Below, piece after piece: positions 4,596 to 33,765 of a DNA stretch of 64,000 bases. Numbering within the stretch: the stretch's first letter is position 1; each line of letters opens with the position of its first letter. The notes beneath the pieces were generated by a model that was not told where the DNA came from, did not search any database, and saw only the letters and a list, made by a program, of their open reading frames with translations. Source of the stretch: Planctomycetota bacterium (GTDB taxonomy: Bacteria; Planctomycetota; UBA8742; UBA2392). The position numbers and the translations under genes were made by a program. The stretch is from NCBI GenBank assembly GCA_020845475.1, contig JADLFN010000046.1:138997-202996 (forward strand), given 5' to 3'.

Positions 4596-5189
4596 CTATT
4601 TCCCGCCGGCCTTTTCGTAGTTCTTGGCCGCGAAATCCCAGTTCGCCAATGAAGCCAGGAACGTATCGAGGAACTTGGCGCGCGCGTTGCGATAGTCGAT
4701 GTAGTACGCGTGCTCCCATACGTCGCAGCACAGCAGCGGCGTCGCGCCACCCTTGAGCGGGCATTCGGCGTTAGGCGTCTTGGTGATTTCCAGCTTGCCG
4801 CCCTTGAGCGACAGCCACGCCCAGCCGGAACCAAACTGCGTCATGCCGGCCTCATGGAACTTTTTCTTGAAGTCGTCGAAGCTGCCGAAGTCGCGCTTGA
4901 TCGCTTCTCCGATCGCGCCCGTCGGTGCACCGCCGCCGCCCGCCTTGAGGCAATTCCAGTAGAACGTGTGGTTCCACACCTGCGCGGCCTGATTGAAGAG
5001 CGGGCCTTCAGCCGTTTTGATCAGTTCTTCGAGGCTCTTGCTGCCCTCGGGCTTGCCGGCCGTGATCTCATTCAGCTTGTCCACGTAAGCTTTAAGGTGC
5101 TTGCCCCAGTGGTAATCGAAATGCTCAGCGGAAAGGTGCGGCACGAGCGCGTCCTTGGCGTAAGGAAGCGGCGAGTGTTCAAAAGGCAT
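4596..5189 (-). CDS. sodB: Superoxide dismutase, Fe/Mn family
   Basis: 197 residues, the normal size. It converts superoxide to oxygen and hydrogen peroxide. Family landmarks are all present: LPYAKDALVPHLSAEH with the first ligand His in YHWGKH, AAQVWNHTFYWN (second His), FGSGWAWL, and DVWEHAYYIDY (ligand Asp and His). The QVWNHTFYWN wording is closer to the iron-type enzyme, though metal choice cannot be fixed from sequence. There is no signal peptide, so it is cytoplasmic. It is single-gene, with its own candidate promoter upstream (5241-5269) and divergent from the selenoprotein cluster. Start ATG 5189 is preceded by a GGAG-type ribosome site (CTGGAGGAATCC). Confidence 0.95.
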   Translation of the reverse strand: MPFEHSPLPYAKDALVPHLSAEHFDYHWGKHLKAYVDKLNEITAGKPEGSKSLEELIKTAEGPLFNQAAQVWNHTFYWNCLKAGGGGAPTGAIGEAIKRDFGSFDDFKKKFHEAGMTQFGSGWAWLSLKGGKLEITKTPNAECPLKGGATPLLCCDVWEHAYYIDYRNARAKFLDTFLASLANWDFAAKNYEKAGGK

Positions 5190-5503: not shown

Positions 5504-6361
5504 ATGCGAACGCTTTCTTCAACGGTATTGACGCTGGCCATTGTGAGCCTGGCGTTTGTTACCGCGCAGAAGCTGCAGGCCGGCTGATGACCGAAGGGCG
5601 GACAAGGTGCGTCCCGTGTGGACAAGCCGCAAACGAAGCGAGTTGGAACCCCAGCCCAGCCTGCGACTCCCATTGCGTGGGAGAAGCCGGACAGCTCAGC
5701 GCTTGAGAATGCCCAGAATGGCGACAAGCCGGTGGTCATTTTCTTCCCCGGCGAGGCCGCTGACCAGAATTCGGACAGCTATCTCTCCGACCCGGCCGTG
5801 AAGGCTCTGGTGAACGACAAAGCCATTTTTGTCCGTGTTGCCTACACCAGCGACCGTGAGAAGGCCCCTTCGGCTTCGCCGGTTCCGACGTGCAAGCTGA
5901 CGGGTGACAACCCCACGCGCGATTACGGCGTGCGGACTTACCCGACGTTCATCATTGCGGACAAGTTCGGCAACGAATGCAACCGCATTGAGTCCAAGAA
6001 GCCGACGGCCAAAGAGTTTGAAGCGTTCTTCGAGAAAGTGTCTTCCAAGATGGAAGACAACAGCAAGAAGCTTCAGAAGAATCTGGACGCTGCGAACAAG
6101 GCTTGGACTGGCAAGGATCGCAAGAACGCCCTGGCCAGCGTAATGCGTAGTTTCAAGGAAGGCCTCGTCGGGTACGATCCTGTTGAACCGACTGTGCGCC
6201 TTTACAACGAGCTGCTCGAAGATGCCCGCGGCGAAATCAGCCGCCTCGCTGAAGCCAACGATGTCAAGGGCCTGAAGGCGCTCAAGGCCCAGCTCAAGGG
6301 CACCGACGCCGAAAAGGATGTTGACGAGGCCATCGCTGGCCCCTCCAACACCAGCAAGTAA
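5504..6361 (+). CDS. Secreted thioredoxin-fold selenoprotein A, tandem Sec (UU) at mature N-terminus
   Basis: 285 residues if UGA at 5585-5587 and 5588-5590 is read as Sec (U28, U29). Start ATG 5504 has a strong site (AAAGGAG at 5491-5497). Residues 1-27 are a signal peptide ending LQAG; cleavage after LQA would leave G-U-U. Then comes a Gly/Pro-rich linker with RVDKPQTKRVG, shared with the next gene (RVDKPQQAKKRVVG), which argues for translation across the UGAs. Residues about 60-165 resemble a thioredoxin fold (KPVVIFFPGE, RDYGVRTYPTFIIAD) with PGE where CxxC normally sits. One Cys remains at VPTCKL. The rest is helical. A strict reading starting after the UGAs would lose the signal peptide. 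Function unknown; likely a periplasmic or extracellular redox or metal-binding role. Confidence 0.88.
5596..5615 (+). promoter_or_regulatory. Possible SECIS hairpin of selenoprotein A
   Basis: Downstream of the double UGA, GGGCG (5596-5600) can pair with CG-t-CCC (5610-5615, T5612 bulged) around loop GACAAGGTG. The alternative is GGAC/GTCC around AAGGTGC (loop at 5604, 16 nt after the first UGA). Both expose GGU in the loop. This is the weakest of the six hairpins in the window. Confidence 0.45.
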
Positions 6362-6377
6362 GCTGTACGAATCGAAG

Positions 6378-6405
6378 AGCGCGGCTTAGGCCGCGCTTTT
6401 CTTTT
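6378..6405 (+). terminator. Rho-independent terminator after selenoprotein A
   Basis: AGCGCGGC (6378-6385) pairs with GCCGCGCT (6390-6397), loop TTAG, followed by TTTCTTTTT. It is a textbook intrinsic terminator 17 nt after the stop codon. Confidence 0.9.
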
Positions 6406-6821
6406 TGATTGGATCGAAATAGCGTCGTTGGGACGTAGAGATCCTGAAGGCAAAGGCACACAGATTTGACCCTGCGCCTTGGATGCTGTACTCTTGCACT
6501 GGCAACCAGCGTGATTGTGGTAGGTTTGCATCCGATTTTGGTACTTGGTATCCAATGGCAACTGCGTTGCCATTCATTACTGGACGACCATACTGTTCTC
6601 GGATTCTAGGGGCGACGATAGCCGGTCATCGTAACAGGTTTGCCGCAAAGGATTTGTGTTTCGCCATTTATTCTTCCACTGCCGCGGATTTTCTGAACCC
6701 ATTAGCGCTGAGTACGTTCTTACACCAACATCGCAAATCGTTTTAGGCTCGTAATTTGCTATGGACGGTCGGGATGTTCTTCTTCCGCAGTCAGGGTACT
6801 GGGCCCTAATCGGAGAAACGC
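6406..6821. other. Spacer between selenoprotein A and B genes
   Basis: About 415 bp of lower GC content than its surroundings with no convincing gene. A stop-free 87-codon stretch at 6483-6746 has no ribosome site and no recognisable domain. Because a terminator precedes it and a selenoprotein gene follows, it probably holds the promoter and leader of selenoprotein B, but I cannot place a promoter with confidence. Confidence 0.5.
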
Positions 6822-7727
6822 ATGACAGGTATGATCAGGACAGTCGGGCTCGCTGTGGCGTCCTTTGCGATGCTCGGCATTTCGGCTCAAGCTCTCAACG
6901 CCGGCTGATGCCCCGCCCCAGGCGGCGGTGGATCCGCTGGCACAGGTGGTACGGGCGCTCCAAGCGGTGGCAGCGCTGAACGTGTTGACAAGCCTCAGCA
7001 GGCCAAGAAGCGCGTAGTGGGCGCTCCGGCACCGGTCGAATCTCCCACGTTCCAGCGTCCGGGATCGGACGTCCTGGAGAACGCGGCAAACGGTCAACAG
7101 CCGATTTTCATCTTCTTCCCCGGCGAAAAGGACGACCCCAACACCTACTTCGGCGGGGCCGACTACAAAGCGCTGGAGGGCAAGGCCCAGTTCGTGACGG
7201 TGCCTTACAACTCCGACCGCGAGCCTTCGCCCGCGACCGAGGAATCCCTGGTTCCGACGTGCAAGCTCCTTTCGGATAACCCCTCGCGCGACTACGGCAT
7301 CAAGATGTACCCTGCCTTCATCATCGCCGACAGCTACGGCAACTCGATCCTGCTGCTCAGCGGCAAGAAGCCTGCGGCCAAGGACTTGGAGTCAGCCTTT
7401 GAAAAGGTTGGCGCCAAAATGGAGGACAACTCCAAGAAGCTGCAGAAGCGCCTCGACACCGCCAAGAAGTCTTGGGAAGCCAAGGACTCCACCAAGGCGA
7501 TGAACGAGATCCGCGGCAACTTCAAGGACGGCCTCGTGGGCTACGACGCCCAGAACGAAACCATCCGCGTTTACCACGAAGTCATCGAAGCCTCACGCGC
7601 TCAGGTTGAAAGCCTGAAAGCCGACGGCTCGGCGGAGGCGATGAAGTCGCTTAAGGCGATGAAGAACACGTTCAAGGGCACAGAGCTCGAAAAGTCAATC
7701 AACGAAGCCCTCAAGGGCTCGAAGTAA
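6822..7727 (+). CDS. Secreted thioredoxin-fold selenoprotein B, Sec-Cys (UC) at mature N-terminus
   Basis: 301 residues if UGA 6906-6908 is Sec (U29). ATG 6822 follows GGAGA (6812-6816); ATG 6831 in the same frame is a weaker alternative. The signal peptide ends ALNAG; cleavage after LNA would give G-U-C. U29-C30 aligns with U28-U29 of selenoprotein A, so Cys stands where A has its second Sec. A Gly/Ser/Pro linker follows, then the shared RVDKPQ element. Residues about 80-190 resemble a thioredoxin fold (QPIFIFFPGE, RDYGIKMYPAFIIAD) with no CxxC; a Cys occurs at VPTCKL. The C-terminal about 110 residues are charged helices. Role unknown; the U-C pair could form a selenenylsulfide. Confidence 0.88.
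6918..6940 (+). promoter_or_regulatory. SECIS-like hairpin of selenoprotein B
   Basis: CCA-g-GCGG (6918-6925) pairs with CCGC-TGG (6934-6940): seven pairs with one bulged G. Apical loop CGGTGGAT begins 17 nt after UGA 6906-6908 and has G at its second position. Size and spacing fit known bacterial SECIS elements. Confidence 0.65.
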
Positions 7728-7732
7728 TCCAC

Positions 7733-7766
7733 CCGTCCATGGGGCCACTTCCGGCCCCATGGACGG
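7733..7766 (+). terminator. Strong 14-bp hairpin between selenoprotein B and C genes
   Basis: CCGTCCATGGGGCC (7733-7746) pairs perfectly with GGCCCCATGGACGG (7753-7766) around ACTTCC, six bases after the stop codon. There is no T-run, so it may be an mRNA-stabilising or partial-termination structure. The ATG of selenoprotein C follows 24 nt later. Confidence 0.6.
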
Positions 7767-7790
7767 ACTCCATTAACTAGGAGTCTTTCC

Positions 7791-8681
7791 ATGTCAAAGT
7801 TCAACATCGTGCTCGTCGCGCTGGTGACAATTCTGATGTCCAGCGCGGCTTGGGGCCAGTGAGGCGGCGGTGGCGGCTGAGGTGGCGGCGGCGGCGCCGG
7901 TGGCGCCGGAGTGGGTGCGGGTGGCGGTGCGGGGCCAGTTGGGCCCGGTGGTGGTGGTGGCGGTCGGGGAGCCTTGAAAGCCGACGGCATTATCGGCTGG
8001 GAGCCCTCGACGCCCAAGACGCTCGAGAAGGCGGCAACAGACAGCAAGCCAATCTTGATTTACTTCCCGGGCGAGGGACCTGAGTACAACTACGATGGCT
8101 ACTTCTACGGCAAGGATCTGAAGGACCTTGCGGACAAGAAGGCCGTGTTCATTCGCGTGGCCTACACAAGCGACCGCGCACCGGTTCCGTACTCGGAACA
8201 GAGCCCGATTCCATTGAACAAGATCGCCGGCGACAACCCGTCGCGCGACTACGGGATCAAGAATTACCCGACGTTCATTATTGCTGACCAGAACGGCAAC
8301 CCGTACTTCCGTGTTGAGGGCAAGAAGCCGACGGCCAAGGATCTCGAAGCCTACTTTGACAAGGTTCCTGAAGCCGCGACCAAGGCCAACGAGAAGCTTC
8401 AGAAGAACCTCGACGAAGCCAAGAAACTCTGGGAGAAGAAGGACAGCAAGGGCGCCGTGGCCATGTTGATCAAGAATTTCAAGGATGGCGCGGTTGGCCT
8501 CGCGGCCGCCGAGGGCGGCATCAAGCTGTACCGCGAGTTGCTTGAAGATGCCAGGGCCAAGCTCAAAGATATTGGCGACAAGAGCAAGGCCGACAACGTC
8601 AAGAAGCTCAAGGCCATGCAGCGCGAGTGGGGCAAGGGCACCGAGATCTACTACGAGATTGAGGACATCCTGAAGTCCTAG
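7791..8681 (+). CDS. Secreted thioredoxin-fold selenoprotein C, U-GGGGG-U Gly-rich N-terminal tail
   Basis: 296 residues with UGA 7860-7862 and 7878-7880 read as Sec (U24, U30). ATG 7791 is preceded by a TAGGAG site (7778-7783). Residues 1-21 are a signal peptide (IVLVALVTILMSSAA). The predicted mature start is Q-U, then five Gly, a second U and a roughly 40-residue tail almost purely Gly, Ala, Val and Pro, ending at GRGALKADG. Residues about 75-185 are the thioredoxin-like domain of the two upstream paralogues (SKPILIYFPGE, RDYGIKNYPTFIIAD), again without CxxC and here without the VPTC cysteine (IPLNK instead). After the Secs the protein has no Cys, so any redox or metal chemistry must use the selenols. 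Function unknown. Confidence 0.86.
7892..7908 (+). promoter_or_regulatory. SECIS-like hairpin of selenoprotein C
   Basis: CGGCGCC (7892-7898) pairs perfectly with GGCGCCG (7902-7908) around a GGT loop. The loop is 18 nt after the second UGA (7878-7880) and 36 nt after the first (7860-7862), so one hairpin could in principle serve both. Confidence 0.72.
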
Positions 8682-8697
8682 TTGAAGCGTCAAACCG

Positions 8698-8727
8698 AAC
8701 GGTCGGCCTTGCGCCGGCCGTTTTCAT
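8698..8727 (+). terminator. Terminator after selenoprotein C, shared with convergent gtrA-like gene
   Basis: AACGGTCGGC (8698-8707) pairs with GCCGGCCGTT (8713-8722, one G-T wobble), loop CTTGC, then TTCATTTT. It lies 17 nt after the stop and overlaps the end of the gene on the other strand. Confidence 0.85.
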
Positions 8728-9236: not shown

Positions 9237-10637
9237 GTGCCTGAAAAAACTACATCTCCGTCGTTGCGCGACCTGCCAAAGGTCGATGCACTGCTTTTGA
9301 CCACCGACTTCGAGGCGTTGGCCCAGCGCTACGGCCGCACTCCCGTGGCGCAAGAAACCCGCGCCGCGCTGGATTCATTGCGCCAGCGCCTGCGCGCCAA
9401 CAATGGCGTGAACACTACAGAGATTTCGCCTCACGGCCTCGCCTTGCGCGTGCGCGAATCACTGGAAAAACTCTTCGCGCCGCGCCAATGCCGCGTCATC
9501 AACGCCACAGGCGTGATCCTGCATACCTCGCTGGGCCGCGCGCCGCTTGCTCCGGCCGCCGTCGAGCAGGCCGTGCGCGAGGCTTCGGGCTACTCGCTGC
9601 TCGAACTCGACCGCGAAAGCGGCAAGCGCAGCGACCGCGACAAACTGGTAAACGATCTGATCTGCCGCGTGACGGGCGCGCAGGCCGCGACGGTCGTGAA
9701 CAATAACGCCGCGGCCACGATGATCATTCTGAACTCGCTTGCCGAGGGCCGCGAAGTCATCTGTTCACGCGCGCACATGGTGGAAATCGGCGGCAGCTAC
9801 CGCATGCCCGACGTCATGCGCAAGGCAGGCTGCAAGCTCGTCGAAATCGGCTGCACCAACAAGACGCACCCTCGCGATTACGAAGACGCCGTCACGCCGC
9901 AAACGGCGCTGCTGCTCAAGGTGCACACCAGCAATTACGCCGTCGTCGGCTTCACAGAAGAAGTCTCGCTGCCTGACCTGATGGCGATTGGCAAAAAACG
10001 TGAAGTGCCCGTTTTCTATGACCTCGGCTCCGGCTCATTGGTTGATCTCGCGAAGTACGGCATCTCGCGCGAGCCCAGCGTGCCCGAATTGCTCAAGCAT
10101 GAACTGGATGTGCTCTGCATCTCCGGCGACAAGCTGCTGGGCGGCCCGCAGGCGGGCATCATCATCGGCAAGCCGGAGATCGTGCAGCGCGTGAAAAAGA
10201 ATGCGCTCTTCCGCATGGTGCGCTGCGACAAATTCACGCTCTCGCTGCTCGAAGCCACGCTCAAGCTTTATCTCGATGAAGATTCGGCTCTCAAGCGCGT
10301 GCCAACACTCGCGGCAATCACGCGCGACGCTGGCGAGGTCAAGCTGAGCGCCGAACGCATCTGCGCTTCGCTCAAGAAAGCCGGTCTTGACGTGTCAACG
10401 GCCAGCGCCACAAGCCAGGTCGGTGGCGGCAGCACGCCCGGCGAGTTTCTGCCCACCACGGTCATCGTCTGGCGCGGCCCCTTCAAATCGGTCGATGACA
10501 TCGCGCGCCGCCTGCGCCTTGGCACGCCCTGCGTGTTTGCGCGCATCGAGGACAACGCCCTGCTCTTTGACCCCCGTTCGCTGCTGCCCGGCCAGGACGA
10601 CGAACTGGCCGCGGCCATTCTCGCGGTCAAGGCGTGA
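9237..10637 (+). CDS. selA: L-seryl-tRNA(Sec) selenium transferase
   Basis: 466 residues, full length. SelA is a PLP enzyme that converts Ser-tRNA(Sec) to Sec-tRNA(Sec) using selenophosphate. The N-terminal tRNA-binding domain starts LPKVDALL, then VINATGVILHTSLGRAPL, the standard SelA opening of the catalytic domain. The PLP lysine is in SGDKLLGGPQAG (about K299). GTG 9237 is the first good start. The gene sits 550 bp downstream of three selenoprotein genes and 730 bp upstream of tRNA-Sec, with a glycosyltransferase gene overlapping its stop (GTGA). It ends in TGA, showing that UGA also works as a stop here. selB and selD are not nearby. Confidence 0.97.
   Translation: MPEKTTSPSLRDLPKVDALLLTTDFEALAQRYGRTPVAQETRAALDSLRQRLRANNGVNTTEISPHGLALRVRESLEKLFAPRQCRVINATGVILHTSLGRAPLAPAAVEQAVREASGYSLLELDRESGKRSDRDKLVNDLICRVTGAQAATVVNNNAAATMIILNSLAEGREVICSRAHMVEIGGSYRMPDVMRKAGCKLVEIGCTNKTHPRDYEDAVTPQTALLLKVHTSNYAVVGFTEEVSLPDLMAIGKKREVPVFYDLGSGSLVDLAKYGISREPSVPELLKHELDVLCISGDKLLGGPQAGIIIGKPEIVQRVKKNALFRMVRCDKFTLSLLEATLKLYLDEDSALKRVPTLAAITRDAGEVKLSAERICASLKKAGLDVSTASATSQVGGGSTPGEFLPTTVIVWRGPFKSVDDIARRLRLGTPCVFARIEDNALLFDPRSLLPGQDDELAAAILAVKA
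10387..10398. repeat. TTGACNNGTCAA palindrome inside selA
   Basis: TTGACGTGTCAA, one of six copies of this palindrome in the window. Here it encodes part of GLDVSTAS near the C-terminal end of SelA. Confidence 0.6.
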
Positions 10638-11364: not shown

Positions 11365-11457
11365 GGGAGCGGATGCATTCCTGGTGGATGCCCTGGTCTT
11401 CAAAACCATGGTGGGGCGCGAGTCCCAGGTCGGTTCGATTCCGATGCGCTCCCGCCA
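11365..11457 (+). tRNA. selC: tRNA-Sec (anticodon UCA)
   Basis: 93 nt including encoded CCA (11455-11457). The anticodon TCA is at 11400-11402 in loop CTTCAAA. It has the features that set tRNA-Sec apart: long acceptor (GGGAGCG pairs with CGCTCCC), a 6-bp D stem (GCATTC/GGATGC) with a short loop, a long variable arm (about TGGGGCGCGAGTCCCA), and T arm GTCGG-TTCGATT-CCGAT with discriminator G. The eighth acceptor pair would be G-G, a small departure from E. coli selC. It is charged with serine and converted by SelA, whose gene lies just upstream. Confidence 0.95.
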
Positions 11458-32931: not shown

Positions 32932-33765
32932 CTACTTGCTGCCGGCCTTCGCCGCCAGCGCCTTGATGGCACTTTCGATTTCGGCGCTCACATCGGTGCC
33001 GGCATAGGTTGCCTGCAACTGCTTGAGTTTTGCGTCGTCCTCAAGGGCCGAAGCGAGCAGTTCGCGGGCGCGTGTCATGATGCTGTTGTAAAGCTTCGCG
33101 GCTTTCGTGGCTTCTTCCCAGTGGGTCAGCTTCAACTTGAAGCCTTCGAGCAACTGCTTGACCGCGGCGGCGTCATCGCTCGCGTCAACGTGCGATTGGG
33201 CCTGATCCACGAACTCGGCCAATTGGGCGCGCGCCGCCTTGATGGTCTTGCGCAGCGAGCTGACGGTTTTTTCGAGCTTCTTTTCCGTGGTGCGCGCAAA
33301 TTCGTTGCCGTATTCGTCGCACACTATGAACGTGCCGGCCTCGGGATTGTCGTAGGCCGCCCACAGGCTCGTGTTCGCAAGACGGCTCTGGGGCACGATA
33401 CTGGCCTTTGGCGCAACTGGGGCTTCGCCCTCTTTAGGGGCGCTCACGATTACGCAGGACACCAGAGCTTTCTTCTGCAAATCGCCAAGGTCAACATCGG
33501 CCGTCCACTTGGCGTCTTTGGACTTGTCCTCAAAGTAGAAGACAAGCGCCTTGCCGTTGCTGCGCGCATCCTGAAACACGTCTTTGCTGGCTGAAATCCA
33601 TGTTGTGGCCACCTGGCCACCGGCTTTCTGCCCTCACGTCTTGGTTCCACCGGAACCTTCGCCAGGCGCTCACGACGCTCAGGCAAAGGCGTCAAAGGGC
33701 GAAAGCAGGCCCGTTCCCAGTGTCAGGAACGAGGCCGCGGCAAATGTCAGCAGAGTCTTTTTCAT
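32932..33765 (-). CDS. Secreted thioredoxin-fold selenoprotein D with UASU plus a third Sec
   Basis: 277 residues if UGA at 33681-33679, 33672-33670 and 33636-33634 is Sec (U29, U32, U44). ATG 33765 follows AGAAGGG. Residues 1-28 are a signal peptide ending DAFA; cleavage after AFA makes Sec the first mature residue. The tail is U-A-S-U (CxxC with both Cys as Sec), then APGEGSGGTKT-U-GQ. The domain (KALVFYFEDKS, then GTFIVCDEYGNEFA) and helical C-terminus are related to selenoproteins A-C. Two hairpins follow the UGAs (listed). Starting at GTG 33612 would remove the signal peptide and all Secs. The dihaem gene follows on the same strand. Function unknown. Confidence 0.87.
33605..33620 (-). 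promoter_or_regulatory. SECIS-like hairpin after the third UGA of selenoprotein D
   Basis: On the minus strand GTGGCC (33620-33615) pairs with GGCCAC (33610-33605) around AGGT. The loop starts 19 nt after UGA 33636-33634 and has G at position two. Confidence 0.7.
33643..33657 (-). promoter_or_regulatory. SECIS-like hairpin after UASU of selenoprotein D
   Basis: On the minus strand GGTTCC (33657-33652) pairs with GGAACC (33648-33643) around GGT. The loop lies 18 nt after the second UGA and 27 nt after the first. Confidence 0.75.

Follow-up and report, generated by a model that had tools for sequence, protein, structure and literature searches.

The stretch of DNA considered here, called the window, comprises 64,000 nucleotides of a Planctomycetota bacterium (GenBank assembly GCA_020845475.1, contig JADLFN010000046.1, positions 138,997 to 202,996 of the forward strand), and it carries three tandem forward-strand genes with in-frame UGA codons. 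They belong to a selenoprotein family that has apparently not been described and is confined to a single family of Planctomycetota. Gene 1 (5504 to 6361; P0001, 285 aa) has adjacent UGA UGA codons at positions 28-29 (5585 to 5590), corresponding to two selenocysteines (Sec, U; U28 U29). Gene 2 (6822 to 7727; P0002, 301 aa) has UGA UGC at codons 29-30 (6906 to 6911), corresponding to selenocysteine and cysteine (Cys, C; U29 C30), and gene 3 (7791 to 8681; P0003, 296 aa) has two separate UGAs, U24 (7860 to 7862) and U30 (7878 to 7880). The encoded proteins share one layout of signal peptide, tail (Gly-rich in genes 2 and 3), thioredoxin-like domain and C-terminal helices. A preliminary description of the window had pointed out a ribosome site, a signal peptide, one or two UGAs and a continuing frame, three times over; this is read directly in genes 1 to 3, each of which has a Shine-Dalgarno-like site, a signal peptide and a single unbroken frame into the paralogous domain. 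Genes 2 and 3 are 42-52% identical to gene 1, which marks the three as paralogs, and the closest relative of the gene 1 domain is 71% identical. When 805 kb of the source genome were scanned in six frames for a signal peptide, a Shine-Dalgarno site and a UGA followed by at least 60 open codons, all 3 matches were family members and no unrelated gene with this signature was met in the surveyed sequence. Thus, the arrangement of signal peptide and UGA is not a chance one.

The family is larger than the three genes first noted. Two further paralogs are present in the source genome, one elsewhere in the window on the reverse strand (32932 to 33765; P0005, 277 aa), with three UGAs (U29, U32, U44; FAUASU..TUGQ), and one on contig C72, which carries U29 U30. 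Orthologs from other genomes keep the three-UGA pattern of P0005 (UASU..TUGQ). When 99 genomes (the source genome and relatives) were searched at the protein level, the family was found in all 16 genomes of the source Planctomycetota family, with 3-8 members each. In the loci found, frames were rebuilt with UGA kept as U and split only at TAA or TAG, so that family genes with TAA or TAG in the tail would be missed, and starts were picked by a simple score combining a Shine-Dalgarno site and a hydrophobic stretch. The 82 distinct proteins extracted include 67 with U, and their 122 UGAs all fall within residues 22-63, with none later. A separate search of genome contigs with the three-gene alignment matched three Planctomycetota metagenome-assembled genomes and, weakly and partially, a Phocaeicola sequence (L085); this last match, 38% over about 50 residues, is probably a chance thioredoxin-like stretch.

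Sec and Cys replace one another at the UGA positions of homologues, as the preliminary description had anticipated for true selenoproteins. Among the 82 proteins, alignment column 39 holds U in 64 and C in 8, and column 44 holds U in 30 and C in 23. The Cys forms within the family occur at three places of the tree (genera g2, g4 and g6), suggesting about three independent U-to-C switches, and the label U, C or none needs 12 changes on this tree, which was built from the domain alone by a quick method and has several long branches that are unsure. When 294 Planctomycetota genomes were searched with a profile, Cys-type relatives also came up in six other Planctomycetota families. Their tails read, for example, A/TCGGGGGGG (the slash marks the predicted cleavage site), or are of the A/TCGGGGG kind, and they lack CxxC. 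Four of these relatives (L123, L126, L129 and L131) are about 540 aa long and so have an additional C-terminal region.

The coding sequence is constrained on both sides of the UGAs. In 20 pairs of close relatives the ratio of nonsynonymous to synonymous substitution rates (dN/dS) is 0.24 for the signal peptide, 0.19-0.20 for the tail and 0.145 for the domain, values that indicate purifying selection upstream of the UGA as in the tail and the domain. Homologues lacking the upstream region had been named as the observation that would count against a selenoprotein; the region is present in the homologues and under selection. UGA is also the usual stop codon of the adjacent selA (11 of 14) and GtrA (9 of 11) genes, and it ends 5 of 81 family genes, a count biased low since frames were split only at TAA and TAG.

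Candidate selenocysteine insertion sequence (SECIS) hairpins lie just downstream of the UGAs. In gene 3 the hairpin CGGCGCC-GGT-GGCGCCG (7892 to 7908, forward strand) has its loop at nucleotide +19 after U30, and in P0005 the hairpin GGTTCC-GGT-GGAACC (33643 to 33657, reverse strand) likewise has its loop at nucleotide +19 after U32. Gene 2 has the candidate CGGCGG-TGGAT-CCGCTG (6923 to 6939, forward strand), and in gene 1 a weak candidate, GGAC-AAGGTGC-GTCC (5600 to 5614, forward strand), was recognised by eye, with GGT at nucleotides +16 to +18 after the second UGA. Compared with redrawn synonymous codons, the null used for both stability and hairpins, the 11-codon window starting two codons past the leading UGA(s) has extra stability in 58 non-redundant genes (mean z -0.92, p 1e-6; the genes are related, and the p-values for SECIS are not those of independent samples). 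Under the same null no extra stability was seen in windows before the UGA or at least 14 codons after it, and windows 8-12 codons after the UGA are less stable. A hairpin with a stem of at least 6 bp follows 55 of 82 UGA anchors, against a null mean of 13 and a maximum of 25 in 1000, and at 29 anchors such a stem is combined with GG exactly at nucleotide +19 (null mean 1.5, maximum 6). The hairpin arms covary as well, with 75% paired as opposed to 56% when arms are swapped between sequences and none of 2000 swaps as high; the arms were ungapped and loop-anchored and were picked solely by GG at nucleotide +19 or +20, blind to pairing, MAFFT having misaligned the hairpins. The family hairpins, many of which have a GGU loop at nucleotide +19, share with the E. 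coli fdhF SECIS the placing of GGU at codon +7 after UGA, but differ from it in stem sequence and in that two UGAs often precede one hairpin.

The machinery for Sec insertion is encoded in the same genome, in part beside the cluster. As had been noticed earlier, the selenocysteine synthase gene selA (9237 to 10637, forward strand; PF03841, 464 bits), itself ending in TGA, and the tRNA-Sec gene selC (11365 to 11457, forward strand; anticodon TCA; RF01852, 73.5 bits) follow the tandem genes, at 0.56 kb and 2.7 kb respectively. The source genome also encodes selB and selD, and its selD (G000:C58:24325-25248, L137) has one in-frame TGA that fits a Sec-type SelD.

The confinement of UGAs to the tails, the exchange of U and C, the SECIS hairpins, the two-sided coding constraint, the Sec machinery and the stop usage together make it virtually certain, judging from sequence, that UGA is read as Sec in these genes. 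The proposal that the three tandem genes are real selenoproteins is upheld by the Sec or Cys of homologues at the U columns, the SECIS hairpins, selB and the selD with its in-frame TGA. Were the UGAs true stops, the locus would consist of short signal-peptide reading frames followed by headless domains with their own starts, and translation table 11 does yield open frames starting past the UGA; however, the frame is kept across 122 UGAs in 67 proteins, the region upstream is constrained as coding sequence, hairpins lie downstream and the UGA columns exchange U for C, all of which leaves this reading with a negligible probability. A reassignment of UGA in the organism's genetic code to Trp, Gly or another residue would suit the Gly-rich stretches in which the UGAs sit, but selA and GtrA of the same loci usually stop at UGA, internal UGAs occur only in the tails and are exchanged for Cys, and tRNA-Sec, SelA, SelB and SelD are all present, so that it too is exceedingly improbable. 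Both readings were rejected on the counts of frames and UGAs, the SECIS null, dN/dS and stop usage.

The Sec residues lie close to the predicted cleavage site of the signal peptide, which was assigned by eye with the -3,-1 rule. The preliminary description had placed Sec exactly at the mature N-terminus; this holds mainly for the three-UGA subfamily (AFA/U), where it is residue 1, whereas in most members the position is about one residue off and Sec is mature residue 2 (LSA/GU, LAA/QU). Each of the 67 Sec tails holds at least two Sec or Cys residues, mainly as UU (25), UC (23) or UxxU (13). In the structural model of the gene 2 protein residues 1-65 have a predicted local distance difference test score (pLDDT) below 50 and the remainder is well predicted. 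A Foldseek search with this model retrieved thioredoxins and DsbH (probability 1.00, TM score normalised by target about 0.6), and the downstream domain is accordingly predicted to be a thioredoxin fold without CxxC: the CxxC of DsbH aligns with non-Cys residues of the family, and the family alignment and the DsbH comparison show neither CxxC nor UxxC as an active site in the fold. These features fit the earlier suggestion of a family built around a Sec-tipped tail and not around a CxxC. No Cys of the domain is conserved across all members; a partly conserved Cys at column 255 (33 of 82), apparently right before the D..GN turn, is a possible resolving residue.

The gene neighbourhood is likewise conserved. 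A Fe/Mn superoxide dismutase (SOD) gene (4596 to 5189, reverse strand) is the divergent neighbour of the cluster, and SOD keeps this place in 14 of the 16 genomes; in the other two, the stretch compared may end too soon. In 15 of the 16, selA lies next to the cluster, and a widely kept order is SOD (reverse), family genes (forward), GtrA (reverse), SelA (forward), GT2 (forward) and tRNA-Sec (forward). The paralog of the C72 type adjoins a cytochrome c protein, and that of the three-UGA type a CxxCH protein with weak similarity to cytochrome c'. These SOD and c-type cytochrome neighbours suggest a part in extracytoplasmic oxidant handling.

From the family, its frames, the U/C exchange, the SECIS hairpins, the Sec machinery and the synteny, all read in the sequences, we infer export, a cleavage site, redox cycling and a substrate as follows. 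UGA would be read as Sec by SelA, SelB, SelD and tRNA-Sec, aided by the hairpin just downstream, and the precursor would be exported by its signal peptide. Cleavage would then leave an N-terminal arm that is disordered and in many members rich in Gly, joined to the thioredoxin-like domain without CxxC and the C-terminal helical domain. A pair of chalcogens, in most cases UU, UC or UxxU, would lie at the tip of this arm or close to it. The pair may cycle between reduced selenol or thiol and diselenide or selenenylsulfide, so that the tail would be the working part of the protein and the redox centre would sit on a mobile arm instead of in a thioredoxin active site; docking of a partner or of the arm may fall to the fold. 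Taken as a whole, a secreted redox protein of an apparently undescribed family, with a reactive chalcogen pair on a disordered N-terminal arm, is the best explanation and a highly probable one. The mechanism of the redox arm is itself fairly probable because of the two or more Sec or Cys residues per Sec tail, the arm of low pLDDT, the thioredoxin fold without CxxC and the SOD and cytochrome neighbours, and peroxide or another oxidant is a tentative candidate for the substrate.

Several observations weigh against this explanation. The low pLDDT of residues 1-65 is a missing prediction, not proven disorder, and the C-terminal helical domain has no place in the proposed mechanism. Cys-type relatives outside the family have one tail Cys only, and the tails of seven to eight paralogs within it lack Sec and Cys alike; thus, the domain may act without the tail. 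No signal peptide is obvious in the SOD, whose proximity may therefore mean shared regulation only. The SECIS of gene 1 is weak, weaker than in most relatives, and the service of a single hairpin to two adjacent UGAs is left unexplained.

Two other functions are compatible with Sec in the tail. The principal competitor is a tail that binds or traps metals or metalloids (Hg, Cu, Ag, As, Se) or stores selenium. UU, UC and UxxU pairs are good soft-metal ligands, the tails of Cys variants within the family contain 4-6 Cys in Gly-rich repeats, and the domain offers no Cys common to all members; yet the Sec tails carry just 2-4 chalcogens each, the scaffold is thioredoxin-like, and the conserved neighbours are SOD and cytochromes, with no metal transporter or regulator recognised among them, all of which makes such a role rather unlikely. 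Still less probable, though less remote than the readings without Sec, is a tail forming intermolecular diselenide or disulfide links, as a cell-surface layer or domain anchor. A signal peptide, several copies per genome, a flexible arm with a reactive tip and Cys-rich variants within the same clusters would be expected of such a protein, but Sec is a costly choice for a purely structural bond, and inspection by eye revealed neither a lipobox nor a known surface-anchor motif. The first U is mostly preceded by LSAG, LAAQ or LKAG, which, read by eye, does not match a lipobox with Cys at +1.

Comparison with known systems sets these proteins apart. They share the thioredoxin fold with the DsbH, Thioredoxin_7 and Thioredoxin_2 group (PDB 2ju5, PF13899, PF13098), to which sequence similarity is weak (PDB profile E 0.048, Pfam below cut-off), but they lack its active-site CxxC, carry their reactive residues on an N-terminal arm and have extra C-terminal helices. 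Like the thioredoxin-fold bacterial selenoproteins with UxxC or CxxU they have Sec from UGA and SECIS and are presumably redox proteins; unlike these, their Sec lies outside the fold, by the signal-peptide cleavage site, and usually in a vicinal pair. Mammalian thioredoxin reductase likewise bears vicinal Cys and Sec on a flexible C-terminal arm that contains Gly (GCUG), and the likeness is one of analogy only, the family having its pair at the opposite terminus, a different fold and no flavoprotein. No NCBIfam model (June 2026) scored above its cut-off for the five paralogs, nor was the curated cut-off of Pfam reached. A 2026 review lists 119 prokaryotic selenoprotein families and subfamilies (PMC13188914), none of which fits going by its table of domains and motifs, and searches of open-licence literature for adjacent Sec codons and N-terminal Sec turned up no such family, although a description elsewhere is possible. 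There is about an even chance that the family represents a novel class of redox enzyme acting outside the cytoplasm, with catalytic Sec-Sec or Sec-Cys at the tip of a disordered N-terminal arm, several paralogs per genome and UGA UGA decoded via a single SECIS. The known set of selenoproteins would gain a family with an uncommon layout, present in 3-8 copies per genome, and the reading accounts for the breaking of these genes by table 11 annotation. The UGA UGA pairs conserved across genera provide a natural system for how one SECIS serves two Sec codons, and an exported Sec pair on a mobile arm would pose a direct question on extracytoplasmic selenium chemistry in Planctomycetota.

Some minor features of the locus may be added. 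Terminator-like hairpins, by consensus match only, lie 3' of gene 1 (6374 to 6401) and of gene 3 (8697 to 8723), both on the forward strand. The TGA stop of selA overlaps the GTG start of a glycosyltransferase gene (GTGA, 10634 to 10637). At locus L049, an unusual tRNA-like gene whose anticodon has four bases (ctgc; L049:11949-12046, forward strand) is called by ARAGORN directly past tRNA-Sec.
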